Shown in pieces: positions 12,891-22,993 of a stretch of DNA of 26,239 nt. Source of the stretch: a virus; the IMG/VR virus record IMGVR_UViG_3300020452_000313, positions 1-26,239 of that record; one strand, given 5' to 3'. Position numbers and translations under genes: made by a program. Below the pieces are notes generated by a model. It was not told the origin of the DNA. It did not search any database and saw only the letters and a list, made by a program, of their open reading frames with translations. How positions within the stretch are numbered: the first letter of the stretch is position 1; the number at the start of each line of letters is the position of its first letter.

Positions 12891-13754
12891 TCAATTCAAG
12901 TAAATGTTAGCAGCATCCATATCTATGTTGCCATCAGCATTTATATCCATATTACCAGTAGTATCTGTTCGTACATCACCAGTTACTGTCCTATAATAAC
13001 TGGATGATTGAGGAGCATCAACTGCACCGATAAAGTTTCCACCCGCTATAGGTGTCTTATCATTACCATATACAGTGTCCCTAACTTTACCAAACATCGT
13101 ATTATATTGATTACCTTTGGTAACCTCATATCGAGTGCCTTCAGTATTTAATGCCAAGTTGCCTTCACTGTGTACTGAAACAGCACCTGTATTTGATGTT
13201 TGTTTTATGGCATGGAACTTATCTGTTTTTTGTTCTGCTACTTTATAATGAGAGTGGTATGTTGTACCCTCATTAATATATTTCGCAGTTTTTATTTTTG
13301 TGGTATTTGCTGTCTTCAATGAGTAATTAGATTTAGTTTCATTGAGATAGTTACCACCAACGGTGAGTTTATAATCACCATTGACTCTATGATTGAAGTT
13401 GCCTTCGCATTCATAATGTGTGTCACCTTCGACATATATTCTCAAGTCACCTCGTACAGTTAGAGACATCATATCAGAATCAGGGTTCTTACCAACCTCA
13501 AAAACTGTATTTCTATCAGACCTTACGATAAAGTCTTGATGAGCTTTGATCTGAGTGTTCTTTTTAACATCCATATCAATGTAGTTCTTGGTTTTGCCAT
13601 GAACTATCCTCACTCTTTGACCATCCTTAGAGTTGTTCATCTCTAAGAAGTGTCCACATGAGGTTGACTGCACCCAGTTATGCGGCCATAATATTGGATT
13701 GTCAGGTGAATTATTGGATGTTTCCGACCCACCGCTGAATCTAGTTAAACTCAT
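12891..13754 (-). CDS. gp5-type beta-helix central spike (separate polypeptide)
   Basis: The 287-aa protein consists of many short strands with repeated G-[ND]-x-hydrophobic turns (for example VRGDLRIYVEGDTHYECEGNFNHRV). It ends in a regular repeat, TGNMDINADGNIDMDAANIYLN in two pieces, as in the triple-stranded beta-helix of T4 gp5 and VgrG-type spikes. I infer it forms the membrane-piercing needle under the hub. In T4 this domain is the C-terminus of gp5; here it is its own gene, starting on the stop of the OB-fold gene by TAATG and preceded by a strong GGAGGTGG ribosome-binding site (13768-13761). No catalytic residues are present, as expected for a needle. Confidence 0.75.
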   Translation of the reverse strand: MSLTRFSGGSETSNNSPDNPILWPHNWVQSTSCGHFLEMNNSKDGQRVRIVHGKTKNYIDMDVKKNTQIKAHQDFIVRSDRNTVFEVGKNPDSDMMSLTVRGDLRIYVEGDTHYECEGNFNHRVNGDYKLTVGGNYLNETKSNYSLKTANTTKIKTAKYINEGTTYHSHYKVAEQKTDKFHAIKQTSNTGAVSVHSEGNLALNTEGTRYEVTKGNQYNTMFGKVRDTVYGNDKTPIAGGNFIGAVDAPQSSSYYRTVTGDVRTDTTGNMDINADGNIDMDAANIYLN

Positions 13755-16435
13755 TAGTATCCACCTCCGTATGATGGTGGGTTAGGAGTGCTTGGTGTAC
13801 TCGGAGTAGATGGAGTAGTCGGAGTACTTGGTGTTGAGGGAGTCGATGGAGTAGACGGTACACTTGATGTTGATGTGGTTGATGGAGTAGATGTGGTAGT
13901 TGTAGCAGCCTCCTCCTCATCATCATCAGTTGTTGTCTCCATAGGATGACCTACGCAATCTATGTATGTTTGTGCTGATGGCAATTTAGATAATATTTCC
14001 TGTACTTTAATAGGTCCTGCAAATTGGTATGTAAGTGCAACTACAGCACCACCACCTGTACCGCCTTTATCTTTGACTTTTGGTGCAACAAAACCAAGAA
14101 CTGTTTCTGTTATAACAGGTGTTAAAATTTGACCTTTAGCATCAACATCAGCTGTGCCAATTTGTTTTTCTTTAACACCCTTACCAATAGTTATTATTGG
14201 TTCTTTATAGTCTTTACCAACATTGATAGTTTGTATTGCTTGAACAACAGGGATAAGGTCACCACAACTAGCATATACTGCTTTAGCATCTGGCGGTACT
14301 ACTAGATCTGGGAATTTCTCACTATAGTTGACTGTAAACGTATATCCAGACTGTGTTTTTAATTGCATTCCAGATTTTACATTTGGTTCAAATGTCTTCT
14401 CAATGGTTGCAATGAGAATATGAGTATCAGAATATTGTACATCAACAACCTGCATTACATCTGGATTAGTTGTGTCTTCTGTACCATCAGCATAGGATAC
14501 TAGGTATAGAAGTTCTCCATCGTTTACCTCATTTATAAGTCCAGATTTAGGGATCACAAAGTTCCACTGTTCATTAGGGCAGTATGTGTCAGCAGGATCA
14601 AATCCATATCCTATACCAGTATTTGTTACAGCGATAGAATCGATCTTACCATCTTTAATGTTAGGTTTAAATACAGCACCACCACCTTCAGGTTCGTTAC
14701 AAGTAAATTGTGCACGAGCTTGTGCTTCAAGTGGAACACCACTACCTTTCTTTCTTGTCCATACACCAAGTATAGCACCAATCTTATCAACAATAGGCAA
14801 TGCCTTAATAGGTGTAGTAGATTGTAGATTATCCCAAACTATTTCTGGGAAGCATGGTTTCTTATTGAATACAGAGTTGGAACAATTCAAACTTAATGAT
14901 GGTATCTTACCATCAATACCAAAGTTCATGTCCTCAAATTTTGCAATAGGTCCTCTGGTATCAAAATCCTTAGCACTAAATCCAAGTACATTACCTGCGA
15001 GTGGAACCATAGCACCAGTATTAACATCAAACAACATTTGTTGTCCTAAAAATGTACCTGCTGAGAAACCATTTTTGATAGCACCACTGACAGCTGTAAA
15101 TGCAGCAGGTGGTTTGATAGGGAACTGACTCGTCTTATCGTTTGCTGCGTCTCTACCTTTTGCTTTAGGTCCATGACAGGTTTCATATACAGATGATTTA
15201 ATAGCACCAGTCAATGCACCATCACAGAATAGATCAAGAAGATCAGCGATATTCTGAACTAATCCTTCGATCATATCCATAGCACCTTTGATAGCTGAAA
15301 CAATACCCGATATTGCATCTAATGCTGAGTTAATTAGATCCATTAACTTATTCATGATACCACCAAGGATATCTTGGACTAAACATAAGGCACTATCAAG
15401 TGCTCTCTCAAACAAATCATTAAGTAAACCTTCAACAAAATCTTTTATGTCATTTAATAATGTATCAAATAAACAGTTGATAGTCTTAGCAAGACCATCT
15501 AGTGTTCCTTCAATAGGCAGTGATAATTGTGGATCTGGTATTGCAATTTTATCTAACTGATCACGAATTAAATCGTTGGCTTTTGACATCGCCACACCCT
15601 TAATATTTTTAGTGATACCAGTTAATTTTTTGTTAATTCTAAGTGCAGTATTTTTAACCTCAAAAGCAACATCTAAAACATCACCTGTTGTCTTATCAAT
15701 AAATTCACCAACGGGGTTTGTCTCGATGTTACGGGCAAACTTCATAAACTCAGTAATTGCTCCTTCTACTTTCGTAGATGTTTCAGATCCAACTACACCA
15801 TTACCCATTTGAACAGAGAAACATTTATCTTTCTCTACGTAATTACCAAGATCACTAATAGCTTCTCCTACTGTCTTTCTGGGATTTACAGTGCTAGTTG
15901 AAGATTCACCATCATCTTCTTCTCCTCCTTCTTCAACTGCTTCAAGAACTCCTGTTTCAGCATTTTCTCTAACATTAGATCCTGTACCTTGGGCACCACT
16001 TCCTTGACCAGCATGAACTTCTGGAGAATAGTCACCAGCGACCAGCTTAGGAAAGGGTTCGTCTTCATCATTTTGTGTTTTATATGCATTATCTGGGTTC
16101 TCATCACCTATTGTGCCTACAACTATAGGAATTTGTGCACTTGCACCGTCCATGAAGAATCCAACCACCCAGCCGTTTACTTGCAGCTGATGGTTCATAC
16201 CAATACCAGATCGTTGCGATGCAGTATTAGGCATCATTATAGTTGCCCACGGTAAATCGTAACTAGTCAGTTCTTTTCTACTTGGATTGTGATACCCTAA
16301 AATTCTAACCTTTGCTTTGTTAGTTTCATCACGATCATCTGGGAACTCTTCTGTGCCTGCACCAGTATTCTCGACTTGTCCAACCCACCAGTTGAACCCG
16401 TCTTTTCCAATAAAATTAGCGGTTGATTCAAACAT
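13754..16435 (-). CDS. gp5-like hub protein with OB-fold and Ser/Thr/Pro tail (893 aa)
   Basis: The N-terminal ~115 residues (FNWWVGQVEN...KAKVRILGYH...LPWATIMMP...QVNGWVVGFFMDG...PIVVGTIGD) match the OB-fold domain of T4 gp5/VgrG spikes. The middle (about 220-420) is a long amphipathic helical segment. Residues ~440-830 are mixed, with GYGFDPADTYCP and LVSYADG strands. The last ~55 residues are an acidic run followed by a Ser-Thr-Pro repeat linker ending in YGGGY. The T4 lysozyme (T4L) domain that lies between OB and helix in T4 gp5 is absent. The helix is the next gene. Length is well above T4 gp5 (575 aa). I infer a hub protein contacting gp27-like protein above and the spike below. Confidence 0.75.
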   Translation of the reverse strand: MFESTANFIGKDGFNWWVGQVENTGAGTEEFPDDRDETNKAKVRILGYHNPSRKELTSYDLPWATIMMPNTASQRSGIGMNHQLQVNGWVVGFFMDGASAQIPIVVGTIGDENPDNAYKTQNDEDEPFPKLVAGDYSPEVHAGQGSGAQGTGSNVRENAETGVLEAVEEGGEEDDGESSTSTVNPRKTVGEAISDLGNYVEKDKCFSVQMGNGVVGSETSTKVEGAITEFMKFARNIETNPVGEFIDKTTGDVLDVAFEVKNTALRINKKLTGITKNIKGVAMSKANDLIRDQLDKIAIPDPQLSLPIEGTLDGLAKTINCLFDTLLNDIKDFVEGLLNDLFERALDSALCLVQDILGGIMNKLMDLINSALDAISGIVSAIKGAMDMIEGLVQNIADLLDLFCDGALTGAIKSSVYETCHGPKAKGRDAANDKTSQFPIKPPAAFTAVSGAIKNGFSAGTFLGQQMLFDVNTGAMVPLAGNVLGFSAKDFDTRGPIAKFEDMNFGIDGKIPSLSLNCSNSVFNKKPCFPEIVWDNLQSTTPIKALPIVDKIGAILGVWTRKKGSGVPLEAQARAQFTCNEPEGGGAVFKPNIKDGKIDSIAVTNTGIGYGFDPADTYCPNEQWNFVIPKSGLINEVNDGELLYLVSYADGTEDTTNPDVMQVVDVQYSDTHILIATIEKTFEPNVKSGMQLKTQSGYTFTVNYSEKFPDLVVPPDAKAVYASCGDLIPVVQAIQTINVGKDYKEPIITIGKGVKEKQIGTADVDAKGQILTPVITETVLGFVAPKVKDKGGTGGGAVVALTYQFAGPIKVQEILSKLPSAQTYIDCVGHPMETTTDDDEEEAATTTTSTPSTTSTSSVPSTPSTPSTPSTPTTPSTPSTPSTPNPPSYGGGY
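13760..13885 (-). repeat. Ser-Thr-Pro repeat linker at the C-terminus of the OB-fold protein
   Basis: About 40 residues consist mainly of SVPSTPSTPSTPST-type repeats with T-T-P variants, followed by NPPSYGGGY. The nucleotide copies use mixed codons, so this is not a simple DNA microsatellite. Such a linker would be flexible and extended, perhaps tethering the spike protein. Confidence 0.75.
13761..13768 (-). promoter_or_regulatory. Strong ribosome-binding site for the spike gene
   Basis: GGAGGTGG lies 6 nt upstream of the ATG at 13754, inside the last codons of the OB-fold gene, where it encodes Gly-Gly. It is one of the best Shine-Dalgarno matches in the window and confirms the start of the split-off beta-helix gene. 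Confidence 0.75.
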
Positions 16436-17718: not shown

Positions 17719-19088
17719 GAGAACTGTGCTGTATTAGCATACTCTGTAAAGAATGGAGATTGCTTCACAACTGATATTGCCATGCTTCCACCACTCTCCA
17801 TGTTTAGGTTGGGAATACCTGCCTTTGCCTTCTGAATCATACCAGTCATTTGTTCTTTTATTCCTTCAACACCACCTTGTTCGTTAAGTAATTCATTACC
17901 TTCATTGATAACATTGTTAGTTAATTCAGATATCATACTCTTAGTGCTATTACTATTTGCTATACCTGACATGTTAGTAACCAAGTTCTTACTGATATTT
18001 TTGAAACTATCACCACTTTGAATAGTACTCATACTACTAGTAAGATCATTCATAATATTCATCAGTCCACCAGTGGTGCCACCACCAATGCTTTCATCAC
18101 CAAACATTTCGATCATCATTCTTCTTTTCTGTAAATTATTAACTACACCACCCATCATTGTCTTAGGAGATACTTGATGGTCTTTATCTTTTGCTAACCC
18201 AAAGAAATTTTTGACAGTAGAAAGCATTCCACCACCACCTTGTCCTCCGCCAGGATTGACATCTGACCTCTTATTCTTAACAAAATTGGATCCAGCCATT
18301 GGTGGTGGTGCTCCTTGAGTTATTGGTGGAGGTGAGAAAAACCTATTCTTACCTGATATCTCCTCTGTTAAATTATTTTTGCTTGTGTTTTGTGCAAGAT
18401 TACTGGTTGAATTATCAGTGCTTGAAGTATTAAACAGTCCCAAACTACTACCAATTTTAGTAATAAAATTACCAACATTAGATATCATAGGAACTATATT
18501 TGGAATTTTAGCTATCAATCCCATCAAGGCAGCACCAGCTGCTTTGAGTGGTAATGCAAGACTATCACCAAATGCTTTCTTGAGTCTAGGATCTATCTTA
18601 AAATCTGTCTCTAATTTATTAGAAATATTCTTTTCAACTGTATCGTCAAATCCAGTCTCTGCTAATGATTTTGTTGACGACTTATCTTGAGGAGCTAATC
18701 CACTAGAGGTTTGTCCTCTCGATTTCGGAGACTTAATAGATGGTGAAGATACACCACCTTTATTATAGTTTTGAGTTCCACCTGATGAAGGGTTGGAACT
18801 TGCACCACCAACATTTCCACCACCACTAGCTTGTTGAACATTTACATATTCGTTATTATCAGGCATCATAGGGACTGATAAATTTGGAACACCACCACCT
18901 ACTGCTGATACATTATCAACGCCAGCACCACCAGTTCCACCTTGAGATGCTTCATCCATAAGGAAGTCATTATAGACATCCTTTTTAAACATTGAATTTA
19001 ACAATGCATTTCTATCATCAAGCAACGCAGTCATACTGTTGACTGTGTGCGATAAATTCTCTATACCTATGTACTTGTCGTCGTTCAT
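17715..19088 (-). CDS. Unknown tail-hub structural protein (457 aa)
   Basis: I do not recognise a family. The N-terminal 45 residues are helical (NLSHTVNSMTALLDDRNALL). Residues ~48-145 are Gly/Ser/Asn-rich and probably disordered. A hydrophobic helical segment follows at about 175-225 (LALPLKAAGAALMGLIAKIP). Low-complexity Pro/Gly blocks precede a C-terminal helical part. It is coupled at both ends by ATGA to the tape-measure-like gene and the gp27-like gene. That location matches the gp28/gp29 class of hub and tape-measure components in T4, so it may be a second tape-measure or hub plug. This is inference. Confidence 0.6.
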   Translation of the reverse strand: MNDDKYIGIENLSHTVNSMTALLDDRNALLNSMFKKDVYNDFLMDEASQGGTGGAGVDNVSAVGGGVPNLSVPMMPDNNEYVNVQQASGGGNVGGASSNPSSGGTQNYNKGGVSSPSIKSPKSRGQTSSGLAPQDKSSTKSLAETGFDDTVEKNISNKLETDFKIDPRLKKAFGDSLALPLKAAGAALMGLIAKIPNIVPMISNVGNFITKIGSSLGLFNTSSTDNSTSNLAQNTSKNNLTEEISGKNRFFSPPPITQGAPPPMAGSNFVKNKRSDVNPGGGQGGGGMLSTVKNFFGLAKDKDHQVSPKTMMGGVVNNLQKRRMMIEMFGDESIGGGTTGGLMNIMNDLTSSMSTIQSGDSFKNISKNLVTNMSGIANSNSTKSMISELTNNVINEGNELLNEQGGVEGIKEQMTGMIQKAKAGIPNLNMESGGSMAISVVKQSPFFTEYANTAQFS

Positions 19089-21370
19089 GTTCTAGCTGCT
19101 CCTTTTCCAAATACGTCGATGACCATACGTTGTTGCTTTTCTGTTTCCTCTATAGGTACATACTCTTTTTTTATCACTGGTACAGGATATGGTTCTGGAA
19201 CTGGTATCATTTGAGGTGAAGAAGTAGATGCTGTTTTACTTACATTGACTGGAGTATCTATCAACGTTTGGTTATTTCTTTTTGTTTGTGATCCTAAGTT
19301 AACAAAGTTAGATGATATGTCTCTAAGATTAGGACCTCCCTTGTTGACACTATCCATCTTAGTTTCTTTCTTAACAGGTATATTTGCACCACCTTGACTA
19401 AAGTAAGGTAATGGATCTATTCTAGTTCCAGATTTATTAAATCTTTCAAAGTGTAGATGTGATTGGTTACTACCATCTTTGCCAGGATAATATTGGATCT
19501 TAGCTAATTGATCACCTTTCATTACCTTTTGACCTTTTTCTACAGTATAGTCATGAACATGTCCATATAGATTAGCAGTACCGTCTTGATGAGAAACCAC
19601 AACTGCACCTCCATACTCACCAAATTTAGGAAGTATTTGTTCAACTACACCATCTTCTTGTGCATGTACTGGAGAATCTTCCCATACTCCTATATCAATA
19701 CCTCTATGCATCCTACCCCAACGAGGACCGAATGGTGAACTGAACAATGGATCTCCTTGTGGAAGTATAGTTTTCCATCTATCTGTACCCTTCAGTGATG
19801 TAGTCATGTTAATCTGTGAATTATCTTGACCACCTGTAGTCATCTTAGTAACATCTGATGTAGATTCTGTCGATGATGATGTAGTGTTTGTAATATTAGG
19901 TGTTCCTGATAGATCTGGTAATTCTACCTTATTCACTTTAACATCAGTATCAGCACCAGTTATTTGTGCAATTCTTCTTGCTTCTGATAATAATCCTGCT
20001 GCAGCAGCACTGCCACCTGCCAAAGGACCTAAAAATGCTAATGTAGCACCTACCATGACAGATGCACCTTCTCTATAAACTGCAGATAATGCATCACCAA
20101 TCTTACTCATAGGTAATATAACTTCTGCTTCATTTGCTTCACCAACTAATGCACGACTACCACCAAACATACCACGAGTAGGTGCTGTTATGACTGAACC
20201 ACCAGCACCATATCCGACTCCACCTTTTGCATATGTTATTAAACCACTATCAGGATATCTTTCCTCAAAGGTACTACCCTCTTCTTCGACACTCTCTTCT
20301 GATTTATTTCCTGCAAATACTGCATCATAAAGCTTACCTCCTAACCAATCACCTGCAGCACCACCAATAAACGCACCAACAAGGTTTCCAAATCCAGGAA
20401 TAGCACTACCTAGAGCACCTAGTCCCCATGCTCCAATCAGTGCACCAGCCGTTTTAAACGCTGATCTGCCAAGTGACTCTTTAAATACAAAAAAGTTTAA
20501 TGCGAAATCAACTAAAGCACCAATTATAGGAATTCTTTTTACTATAGGACTAATCAGTTTTTTAGCCGCTTTTAATCCTGTTACACCTGTTTTGACTGCT
20601 CTTTCTGAGAATTCAATTGTTGATTTTGCCATTATTGATTCTAAGGGCAACTGCTTAGTTATGTTCTTGGTTATGTTTGTAGCGGTGTCCCCTATTGTTG
20701 TTTTTGCACCACTTACAAGATTATTAACATTTTTTACTGCTGATTGTTTAATTGCTGAAGCAGTTTCAGTTATATTACCTGGTCTTAACCCTCGTGTGAA
20801 AAAATTATTACCTGCGTGTTTTAGATTACCACCCATGTTCATTCTCGTCAGAAATTCTGGACGATTAGGAATCATGTCTGTCGCATTCTTTAAAGTATTT
20901 TTGACAATATTACCGCCTGGATTTAGTCTTTTAGCTTGTTTAAGAGCAGCATCCATAGGGATATTCTTTGCTCTTAAATTTTTATAGAAATCAATTTGAT
21001 TTCCTCTAAGACCAAGTTTATTCAAAGAACGTGTTACATTACGACTGTTACGGAGGTTCTTAAAGTTTTTTATCTTATCACCTATTCTAGGTTTGTTTCT
21101 TGGTCTAACATTAGGTTTTGATGGTTTTCTTCTAGGTCGTATAAATGGTAAACTAAGTCCTTTACCTCTTCCACGTTCTTTAGCATAATCAAATTGTGTT
21201 GAATTACCACGTTGCCCACCTAATCCACCAACACCAGTACCACCACCATTTCTTCCTCTTAAATACTCAATATATTCTAGTTCAGTGTCAAGAAACGCCA
21301 CCATGCTTTCTCCGAACATGTTTGCACTTCGTGTCAGTGAACTACTGTCTATAGTGAGGTTTTCAGCCAT
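19085..21370 (-). CDS. Tape-measure-like protein with M23 peptidase domain
   Basis: The 761-aa protein has a basic N-terminal third (Arg/Lys/Pro-rich, about 60-120). A strongly hydrophobic Ala/Gly region follows at about 275-350 (IPIIGALVDFAL...GALIGAWGLGALGS). Next is an AKGGVGYGAGG...LVGEANEAEVILPM motif typical of tape-measure C-terminal regions. A zinc M23 (LytM-like) endopeptidase domain spans about 535-655, with HRGID (His555, Asp559), GHVH (His604, His606) and HLHFE (His638, His640), so all ligand and catalytic positions are present. M23 enzymes cut peptidoglycan cross-links, which suits entry through the cyanobacterial wall. It follows the chaperone and its -1 extension by a TAATG overlap, the classic tape-measure position. 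It may replace the lysozyme activity missing from the gp5-like protein. Confidence 0.82.
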   Translation of the reverse strand: MAENLTIDSSSLTRSANMFGESMVAFLDTELEYIEYLRGRNGGGTGVGGLGGQRGNSTQFDYAKERGRGKGLSLPFIRPRRKPSKPNVRPRNKPRIGDKIKNFKNLRNSRNVTRSLNKLGLRGNQIDFYKNLRAKNIPMDAALKQAKRLNPGGNIVKNTLKNATDMIPNRPEFLTRMNMGGNLKHAGNNFFTRGLRPGNITETASAIKQSAVKNVNNLVSGAKTTIGDTATNITKNITKQLPLESIMAKSTIEFSERAVKTGVTGLKAAKKLISPIVKRIPIIGALVDFALNFFVFKESLGRSAFKTAGALIGAWGLGALGSAIPGFGNLVGAFIGGAAGDWLGGKLYDAVFAGNKSEESVEEEGSTFEERYPDSGLITYAKGGVGYGAGGSVITAPTRGMFGGSRALVGEANEAEVILPMSKIGDALSAVYREGASVMVGATLAFLGPLAGGSAAAAGLLSEARRIAQITGADTDVKVNKVELPDLSGTPNITNTTSSSTESTSDVTKMTTGGQDNSQINMTTSLKGTDRWKTILPQGDPLFSSPFGPRWGRMHRGIDIGVWEDSPVHAQEDGVVEQILPKFGEYGGAVVVSHQDGTANLYGHVHDYTVEKGQKVMKGDQLAKIQYYPGKDGSNQSHLHFERFNKSGTRIDPLPYFSQGGANIPVKKETKMDSVNKGGPNLRDISSNFVNLGSQTKRNNQTLIDTPVNVSKTASTSSPQMIPVPEPYPVPVIKKEYVPIEETEKQQRMVIDVFGKGAART

Positions 21371-21537
21371 TACTTGTGTTTACGACGTTGTTCTTCTATT
21401 TGCTCTCTTTCCTTTTGTAGGTGAGATGCTAATAAGTTCACATAGACTTCCCTTTCCCAAGGAATCATATCCATAATATCGCTCAAGCTATATTTATGAT
21501 GTTGAACGAGAGAAAAATTAGTTTGATAGAAGGTCAT
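21370..21537 (-). CDS. Tail chaperone extension, likely made by -1 frameshift (T-like part)
   Basis: The 55-codon frame (from ATG 21537; open from the frameshift site at 21564) encodes YSLSDIMDMIPWEREVYVNLL followed by a long charged helix, LQKEREQIEEQRRKHK. The S-L-x-x-[IM]-x-x-[ML]-[IL]-P-W/F-E-R-E-x-Y pattern is typical of the second part of tail assembly chaperones that sit before the tape-measure gene. The frame is continuous with the gp26-like gene in the -1 frame, so the expected product is a 295-aa fusion (231 + 9 + 55 residues). A free 55-aa protein is also possible, since GAGGG lies just upstream of the ATG. The stop shares a base with the tape-measure ATG. Confidence 0.75.
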   Translation of the reverse strand: MTFYQTNFSLVQHHKYSLSDIMDMIPWEREVYVNLLASHLQKEREQIEEQRRKHK

Positions 21538-21539
21538 CA

Positions 21540-21570
21540 AGCCCTCGTCAAAGAGGGCTATCCGAAAAAA
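21540..21570 (-). promoter_or_regulatory. Programmed -1 ribosomal frameshift signal
   Basis: Minus strand: the slippery heptamer T TTT TTC (21570-21564) is in phase with the chaperone frame (AGT TTT TTC). It is followed by a 4-nt spacer and a perfect 7-bp hairpin, AGCCCTC / GAGGGCT (21559-21553 and 21546-21540), with loop TTTGAC. The zero frame stops at TAG 21560-21558. The -1 frame has a TAG at 21573-21571, so both frames are open together only across this site. After slipping, reading continues CGG ATA GCC into the 55-codon frame. Confidence 0.8.
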
Positions 21571-22256
21571 CTAACTAGACCTTCTATCGTTATTTCATTT
21601 TCAACTTTAGTTTTGGGGTTTCTCACCTTTAAAACATGCTTAAGTGAAGGCATAGTATTAAAGAACTCCTGTATCAAATCAAATTGTGCTGCAGTTAACT
21701 TTTCTATCCATGCTCTTGCTTCTTTAAATGTGAATGTTCCAGAATCTTCTTCGCCAACATATACTCTTTTTACACATTGAGCAACTAAATCGTATGGATC
21801 AACATCACCCTTAGCAAAATTTATAGTAGAGAAGTATTCTAAGTTAGGATATCTCATCTCTAAAGTTATATCATTTCCTAATTTTATTATATTACTATGA
21901 TCATCTGGAAACGTTACCTTTACTTCATTTGCTAAGAATGAAACATCAACCTGTGTCTCTCCATCATCAGGACAGGTAATTTTTAATTTAAGTTCTTCAC
22001 TAATTGATCTTGCACGGATTTGTAAGAAGAGATACTCAATATCAAATAAAGCAAGATCATCTAACTTGATCCTACTGTTGATACAGTTCTTTAAAATATT
22101 TTTGATGGCATCTAGGATTTGAACTTCGTCCTGTGATTCCATTGCAATAATCAATATCTTCTGCTCTTTAACAAGGAAGGGACGATATTTAATTTTCTTT
22201 TTTGTAGAGGGCACCACCAACTCATACGTTGGTGTAACAATATCAGGTAATGGCAT
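21558..22256 (-). CDS. T4 gp26-like baseplate/tail assembly chaperone
   Basis: The 232-aa protein resembles T4 gp26 of the T4 baseplate protein family. The N-terminus LPDIVTPTYELVVPSTKKKI is followed by YRPFLVKEQKILIIAMES (about 25-42), a helical LDDLALFDIEYLFLQIRARS (about 73-92), CPDDGE (about 102-107) and a C-terminal helical part. In long-tailed phages such proteins act with a frameshifted longer form to load the tape-measure protein. It follows gp54-like by 2 bp, and its last codons hold a -1 frameshift signal. The main product would be the 232-aa form. The frameshift product swaps the last residue for 64 others. Confidence 0.82.
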   Translation of the reverse strand: MPLPDIVTPTYELVVPSTKKKIKYRPFLVKEQKILIIAMESQDEVQILDAIKNILKNCINSRIKLDDLALFDIEYLFLQIRARSISEELKLKITCPDDGETQVDVSFLANEVKVTFPDDHSNIIKLGNDITLEMRYPNLEYFSTINFAKGDVDPYDLVAQCVKRVYVGEEDSGTFTFKEARAWIEKLTAAQFDLIQEFFNTMPSLKHVLKVRNPKTKVENEITIEGLVSFFG

Positions 22257-22258
22257 AA

Positions 22259-22993
22259 TTAGGGTTTAAATACAAAGTGTTGGTACTCATAGAAGAATGC
22301 AACGCTACATTTCACAGCTTCGGATTGACCTGCTGAGTAAGGAACAGTGTTAAAAGAATATGGATATGCTTTTCCAAGTCTTACCTTGAATGCTTTTTGA
22401 TATTCTGCTGGTCTCGTAGATGTTGGTTCAGCACCATTAAGACCAGGTTCTGATTTCTTCTCTACACCAAACTTTTCAAGTTTAGTTATAGTAAGGTCGC
22501 AAGTATAATCATTATAATATCTCTGAGCATATGCTAAATGTTCATTTTTATCAGCGTATGTGTCGGGATTATATAATCCAGGATTATTTGGCAGTTTTGT
22601 TGGTTGTATACCTATGATCATATCTTGCCACAATTTGAAGAATGATATAGGTGATGAACCAAGATCACATATAAAAGTTACATCGAGTTCATTATACATT
22701 CTAGCAGTTGCCATCTTTTGAGTCAACCCTTTCTTGGGCATCTTTAGATCAAAAGTATTAAAACTAGTGCCAGGAATTTGTATGTCTTGACATAGTAAGT
22801 TCATTCTATACATGCCCGCATCCATTTGATTTCCAGTATTACTATACCAAGGGTAAGCTTTACCGTTGTCTGCCCAGAACTCTCGCATGACTCCTGTAGG
22901 TTGTATCTCAAACTCAAATAGATTGGAAGCAGATATACCTTTCCCTACTATTTGCTGAATATACGTATCGACTGATATTTTAGGTGATCCCAT
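22259..22993 (-). CDS. 54: gp54-like baseplate tail-tube initiator
   Basis: The 244-aa protein has the tube-protein fold pattern of T4 gp54/gp19: an N-terminal NLFEFEI strand, MYRMNLLCQDIQIPGTSF (about 62-79), a TARMYNELDVTFICD strand (about 95-110) and a FFKLWQDMIIG helix. The C-terminus ends FFYEYQHFVF. gp54 caps the baseplate and nucleates polymerisation of the gp19 tube. Its position, divergent from gp4 and near gp48, and its length (T4 gp54 is 320 aa, gp19 163 aa) favour gp54 over the major tube protein. It is the first gene of the hub operon, just downstream of a late-promoter-like box. Confidence 0.7.
   Translation of the reverse strand: MGSPKISVDTYIQQIVGKGISASNLFEFEIQPTGVMREFWADNGKAYPWYSNTGNQMDAGMYRMNLLCQDIQIPGTSFNTFDLKMPKKGLTQKMATARMYNELDVTFICDLGSSPISFFKLWQDMIIGIQPTKLPNNPGLYNPDTYADKNEHLAYAQRYYNDYTCDLTITKLEKFGVEKKSEPGLNGAEPTSTRPAEYQKAFKVRLGKAYPYSFNTVPYSAGQSEAVKCSVAFFYEYQHFVFKP

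Follow-up and report, generated by a model that had tools for sequence, protein, structure and literature searches.

A conserved slippery site at the end of the gp26-like tail chaperone gene predicts a -1 frameshift product in T4-like phages

In phage lambda, a -1 frameshift at the 3' end of the tail assembly chaperone (TAC) gene, just before the tape measure gene, yields the short form G and the rare extended form GT in a short-to-long ratio of 30:1 (PMC5009743). Contractile-tailed P2 is also known to use a frameshift mechanism, and a 2016 review treated T4 as an exception to the otherwise widespread G/GT frameshifting (PMC5009743). T4 gp51 is needed for assembly and is absent from the particle, whereas gp26 is listed as a chaperone whose presence in the hub is debated (PMC3004832); cyanophage gp51 has been described as lacking the first ~200 residues, with no mention of frameshifting (PMC3037559). 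Here we describe a gp26-like gene on the minus strand of a 26,239-nucleotide (nt) stretch of DNA from a marine T4-like phage (IMG/VR record IMGVR_UViG_3300020452_000313, positions 1 to 26,239), the whole of which is referred to below as the window. Judging from its sequence and that of its relatives, this locus very probably produces a TAC-N/TAC-NC tail chaperone pair by -1 frameshifting, in the manner of lambda G/GT.

The locus resembles the lambda system in the position of the shift and differs from it in the slip sequence, T TTT TTC, and in belonging to a contractile T4-like tail; sequence similarity between the two is not expected. Another parallel is the system described for Pakpunavirus Adele and Vandenendeviridae/Andersonviridae (PMC12846349), where TAC-N also ends in a conserved poly-T -1 slip and the frame beyond it is likewise annotated as a separate gene, although the motif there is GTTTTT and the phage family is another one. 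According to PMC10885494 and PMC12846349, the TAC genes of T4-like phages were identified by Vladimirov et al. 2022 (Virology 566:9), whom PMC12846349 (2025) also cites for poly-T -1 signals being known in the TAC-N genes of these phages. Both the mechanism in general and the chaperone assignment were therefore known before, novelty is limited, and the preliminary description of this DNA, which presented the phage group as undescribed in this respect, went too far, as the T4-like TACs had been identified in 2022 and the P2 mechanism was known. In the literature, the text of Vladimirov et al. 2022 aside, no description was found of the extent of conservation, the loss of slip codons after duplication, or the way the -1 stop overlaps the tape-measure-like gene that follows.

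The gp26-like gene (TAC-N, 232 amino acids (aa), positions 21558-22256; all features below are on the same strand) ends with GGT CTA GTT AGT TTT TTC GGA TAG. Both the sequence itself and the relatives place the slippery heptamer T TTT TTC (21564-21570) in phase with the zero frame. Since the zero frame stops at TAG 21558-21560 and the -1 frame is closed directly 5' of the slip by TAG 21571-21573, the two frames overlap solely across the slip. The 4-nt spacer GGAT (21560-21563) leads to a putative stimulatory hairpin, AGCCCTC-TTTGAC-GAGGGCT (21540-21559), with 7 base pairs and a 6-nt loop. Every one of these elements had been listed in the preliminary description and was found in the sequence; its length of 55 codons for the -1 frame holds when counted from an inner ATG (21535-21537), and from the slip to the TAA (21370-21570) the frame has 66 codons. 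The predicted fusion, TAC-NC, has 295 aa, with the junction ...LVSFFRIALFDEG...

The first line of evidence for the site is its conservation, which was followed in 80 IMG/VR relatives with 51-98% aa identity (close set) and in 82 readable loci of much lower identity from three further scans (distant set). T TTT TTC was found in phase, with the stop 10 nt further, in 80/80 close relatives, and T TTT TTY in phase in 82/82 distant loci (65 T TTT TTC, 17 T TTT TTT). The distance from the heptamer to the zero-frame stop varied from 7 to 40 nt among the distant loci while the heptamer stayed, which ties the slip signal to the two phenylalanine (FF) codons and not to the stop. Most of the isolates examined, across diverse T4-like genera, keep the heptamer: T TTT TTC is present in P-SSM2, P-HM1, S-PM2, KVP40, phiAS5, AsFcp_4, LPCS28, BUCT608, UB, Atu_ph07 and Desulfovibrio phage 7757, and T TTT TTT in phiN3, C48C1 and pf16, while the junctions of RHph_I1_9 and RHph_I1_18 read T TTT TTG and T TTT TTA, respectively. 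The alignment of related phages suggested in the preliminary description thus recovered both heptamer and frame offset in relatives that retain the -1 frame.

The junction of RHph_I1_18 (L102, 3190-3240) reads T TTT TTA AAC, the zero frame being about ten codons longer before its stop, and represents a variant of the same site. The Vibrio phages BX-1 and D506 (L105 and L106), more distant than all other relatives, have no X XXY YYZ heptamer in the last 60 nt, where GTTTTTC and ACTTTTC occur instead; their -1 frame still overlaps the zero frame and its C-terminal pattern is similar. Another slip or another mechanism may operate there.

Codon usage at the junction stands apart from the rest of the gene. 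The arrangement xxT TTT TTC was found at 2/83 other FF dipeptides of the same gp26 genes versus 81/81 junctions. In 78 distinct genes, which are related sequences and so not independent trials, the slip codons were invariant (TTT 78/78, TTC 78/78), while each of the eight other invariant F columns mixes TTT and TTC, so that only the slip-codon F columns use a single codon; of the other conserved columns, 1/67 has a single codon at a frequency of at least 99%. Despite this kinship, synonymous sites elsewhere in the gp26 genes have clearly turned over.

The second line of evidence is homology. The gp26-like protein matches PF12322 over profile positions 2-218 of 219 (E 2.5e-62, passing the curated threshold) and phrog_150 (E 1.3e-70); PF12322 was found in one place in the window's own record, itself a 26-kb fragment. 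The -1 peptide matches phrog_634 (gp51; E 4.4e-23) and also positions 242-280 of phrog_150, just past the end of gp26. In T4 gp51, residues 1-201 match PF12322 and residues 3-248, extension included, match phrog_150. In an unconstrained alignment, gapless at the junction, the final FF of gp26, the first FF of the -1 peptide and the VF of gp51 occupy the same columns. The -1 extension is homologous to the C-terminus of T4 gp51, and the gp51 N-terminus is gp26-like; homology to gp51 includes the motif RIALFxEG, located 5' of the inner ATG. As the profile spans and the column alignment agree, gp51 corresponds to the predicted fusion as its natural in-frame form, and the two are collinear; T4 gp26 and gp51 belong to the same protein family as the window's protein, and gp26 is, by sequence comparison, a short paralogue of gp51.

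A third line comes from structure prediction. In the AlphaFold2 model of the gp26-like protein (predicted local distance difference test, pLDDT, 88.9), residues 1-94 match Rbstp2171 (3fgx, Z 8.2) and the HK97 gp13 TAC (2ob9, Z 7.3), the next row having Z 3.3; 3fgx is described as a phage tail assembly chaperone (PMC9603447). The window's protein differs from both in having about 140 further residues, modelled as additional alpha/beta elements. An HK97-type tail assembly chaperone fold for residues 1-94 is supported by this model. The conserved heptamer, the gp51 homology and the predicted fold all agree with the proposal of the preliminary description that the gp26-like protein and the 295-aa fusion form a G/GT-type pair.

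The proposed mechanism is as follows. Most ribosomes would end at the zero-frame stop and produce the 232-aa TAC-N, while a minority would shift into the -1 frame at T TTT TTC, the P-site TTT and A-site TTC codons re-pairing as TTT TTT. The slipped ribosomes would read past the stop and extend the chain by ~64 residues to the 295-aa TAC-NC, at a rate that the hairpin 4-5 nt 3' of the slip probably increases in cyanophages and the window's clade. The lambda G/GT pair suggests, by analogy, a division of labour in which TAC-N would coat the tape measure protein and the rare TAC-NC would recruit subunits of the tail tube. From the signal, its conservation, the homology and the predicted fold, all of which are established, we infer the slippage itself, its rate and the binding roles.

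A folding energy of -14.8 kcal/mol was obtained for the 46 nt located 3' of the heptamer (z = -3.5 versus shuffles). A hairpin begins 4-5 nt 3' of the heptamer in the window's clade and in cyanophages, and z < -2 was obtained for 50/73 distinct segments, a set that includes isolates. The hairpin sequences differ by clade (AGCCCTC/GAGGGCT versus AGTATGGCTCA/TGAGTCATACT), the shape being kept in cyanophages. Covariation in the cyanophage hairpin is weak, with a single U-A pair replaced by G-C, in two sequences, and most pairs invariant; the case for the hairpin is therefore built on energy and on recurrence with different sequences, and not on covariation. In 46 distant segments the mean z was -0.57 compared to -0.37 in control segments, no better, and conservation of the hairpin in all T4-like phages was rejected on this ground. 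The hairpin is best read as a lineage-specific enhancer, judged on these sequences, and its conservation, expected as support in the preliminary description, is confined to the window's clade and cyanophages.

Several points weigh against a frameshifting chaperone pair. First, the frameshift product is a prediction made from sequence. Second, the hairpin is weak or missing in distant relatives. Third, a Foldseek search of the PDB with the gp26-like model gave no significant match, and middling Z values can reflect merely a common arrangement; T4 gp51, folded as a natural fusion standing for the predicted one, gave no TAC match in a second PDB comparison, which excludes nothing. Finally, the inner ATG together with the GAGG-like motif (21546-21543) in the window's clade could allow a free 55-aa protein.

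This last point leads to the rival explanation that survives best, although it is improbable: gp26 is accompanied by a free gp51-like protein of 55 aa, made separately by re-initiation at the ATG at 21537, while the hairpin masks the Shine-Dalgarno-like GAGG as long as no ribosome has unfolded it. It agrees with most database annotation (a short gp51 gene of its own is annotated in KVP40, P-SSM2 and phiN3), and GAGG stands directly 5' of the ATG in 26/73 distinct loci, all of the window's type. However, the start position shifts across the 73 loci, falling at codon 4, 5 or 11 after the slip, and in 10/73, including L036-L037 of the window's clade, there is no ATG, GTG or TTG before the conserved core. 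Most of the window's clade has the inner ATG, which is lost in L036-L039; elsewhere it occurs in other places or is absent. The heptamer is the sole universal element, and RIALFxEG, being gp51-homologous, would lie outside the free protein. The preliminary description had named detection of nothing but a free 55-aa protein starting at 21537 as an outcome that would speak against frameshifting, and the start codon proved not to be conserved. Such a product could be made in addition to the fusion in the window's clade.

Transcriptional slippage, in which RNA polymerase slips on the T run and the fusion is translated from an edited mRNA, is less probable still. The site does consist of six consecutive T (seven in a minority of loci), but six T is short for polymerase slippage, most loci keep the run at T6 with a C after it and in a fixed phase, and an RNA hairpin lies 3' of it in many. 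An assembly error or a decayed gene, the frame break being an artefact or a mutation of a once-continuous gene, has a negligible probability: T4-group gp51 is indeed one continuous frame, and a homopolymer indel does break gp51 in the Klebsiella-phage-like record L097, but an identical break at identical codons in >160 contigs and many finished isolate genomes refutes it here. In L097 itself (~2850), a one-base difference in an A run, relative to L114, splits gp51 into two frames; this is probably a sequencing error or a mutation. Equally negligible is the possibility that the hairpin is a terminator or another regulatory RNA and the heptamer incidental, as the hairpin lacks a T tract, the terminator and Rfam scans of the junction gave no call and no match there, and the hairpin changes or vanishes while the heptamer persists.

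If the -1 frameshift is accepted, the arrangement in T4 can be placed beside it: T4 encodes the two forms in separate genes of divergent orientation that lack the slip codons, which were lost, while here one gene with a -1 slip would supply both. In a maximum-likelihood tree, to be read with caution because of long branches (0.65 and 1.64), T4-group gp26 and gp51 form sister clades (99/94), nested with the frameshift-type Straboviridae KVP40, LPCS28, AsFcp_4 and phiAS5 (91/90). The split-type gp26 genes that retain FF (T4, KMI13, L093, L097 and L098) encode it as the non-slippery TTC TTT; loss of the slip thus goes with the presence of a separate gp51. The simplest reading of these sequences is one duplication of a frameshifting gene, after which the gp51 copy would have kept the extension in frame and the gp26 copy would have lost it. 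The tree and the codons suggest that T4-like tail chaperones were ancestrally made by frameshifting, the T4 split having arisen by duplication followed by slip-codon loss. The ~200-residue "truncation" of cyanophage gp51 would also be explained, the missing part being gp26, joined by the slip. Many T4-like records miss the -1 frame, list a separate short gene, or assign a later start.

The gene order at the locus is tail tube, TAC, tape-measure-like. Upstream lies a tail-tube-family gene (22259-22993, 244 aa; phrog_45, E 1.5e-25; PF23849). Downstream, adjoining the -1 frame as noted in the preliminary description, is a tape-measure-like gene (19085-21370, 761 aa) with an M23 peptidase domain (PF01551) and a weak match to phrog_10030 (tape measure); in RHph_I1_18 the corresponding position, one small gene further along, is annotated "tail tape measure protein". 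The 761-aa gene itself contains another in-phase T TTT TTC, at window position 20804.

The TAA that ends the -1 frame and the ATG of the 761-aa gene overlap in TAATG (21368-21372), and no Shine-Dalgarno (SD) motif was found when sought 5' of this start in the window. The -1 stop likewise overlaps the downstream start, or comes very close to it, in most relatives (TAATG, ATGA, ATGGCTGA); in 72 loci the commonest offsets between the two were +2, -5 and -1, and an SD-like motif precedes the downstream gene in 15/72. Because stop and start overlap, usually without an SD motif, mainly frameshifted ribosomes would re-initiate at the tape-measure-like gene. It is possible, though rather doubtful, that the frameshift also sets the output of the tape-measure-like protein; in that case, a single slip would determine the tape measure supply as well as the chaperone ratio. 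Elsewhere in the window (13754-16435), a gp5-like protein (Gp5_OB) was found whose C-terminal end is a long Thr/Ser/Pro repeat tail.
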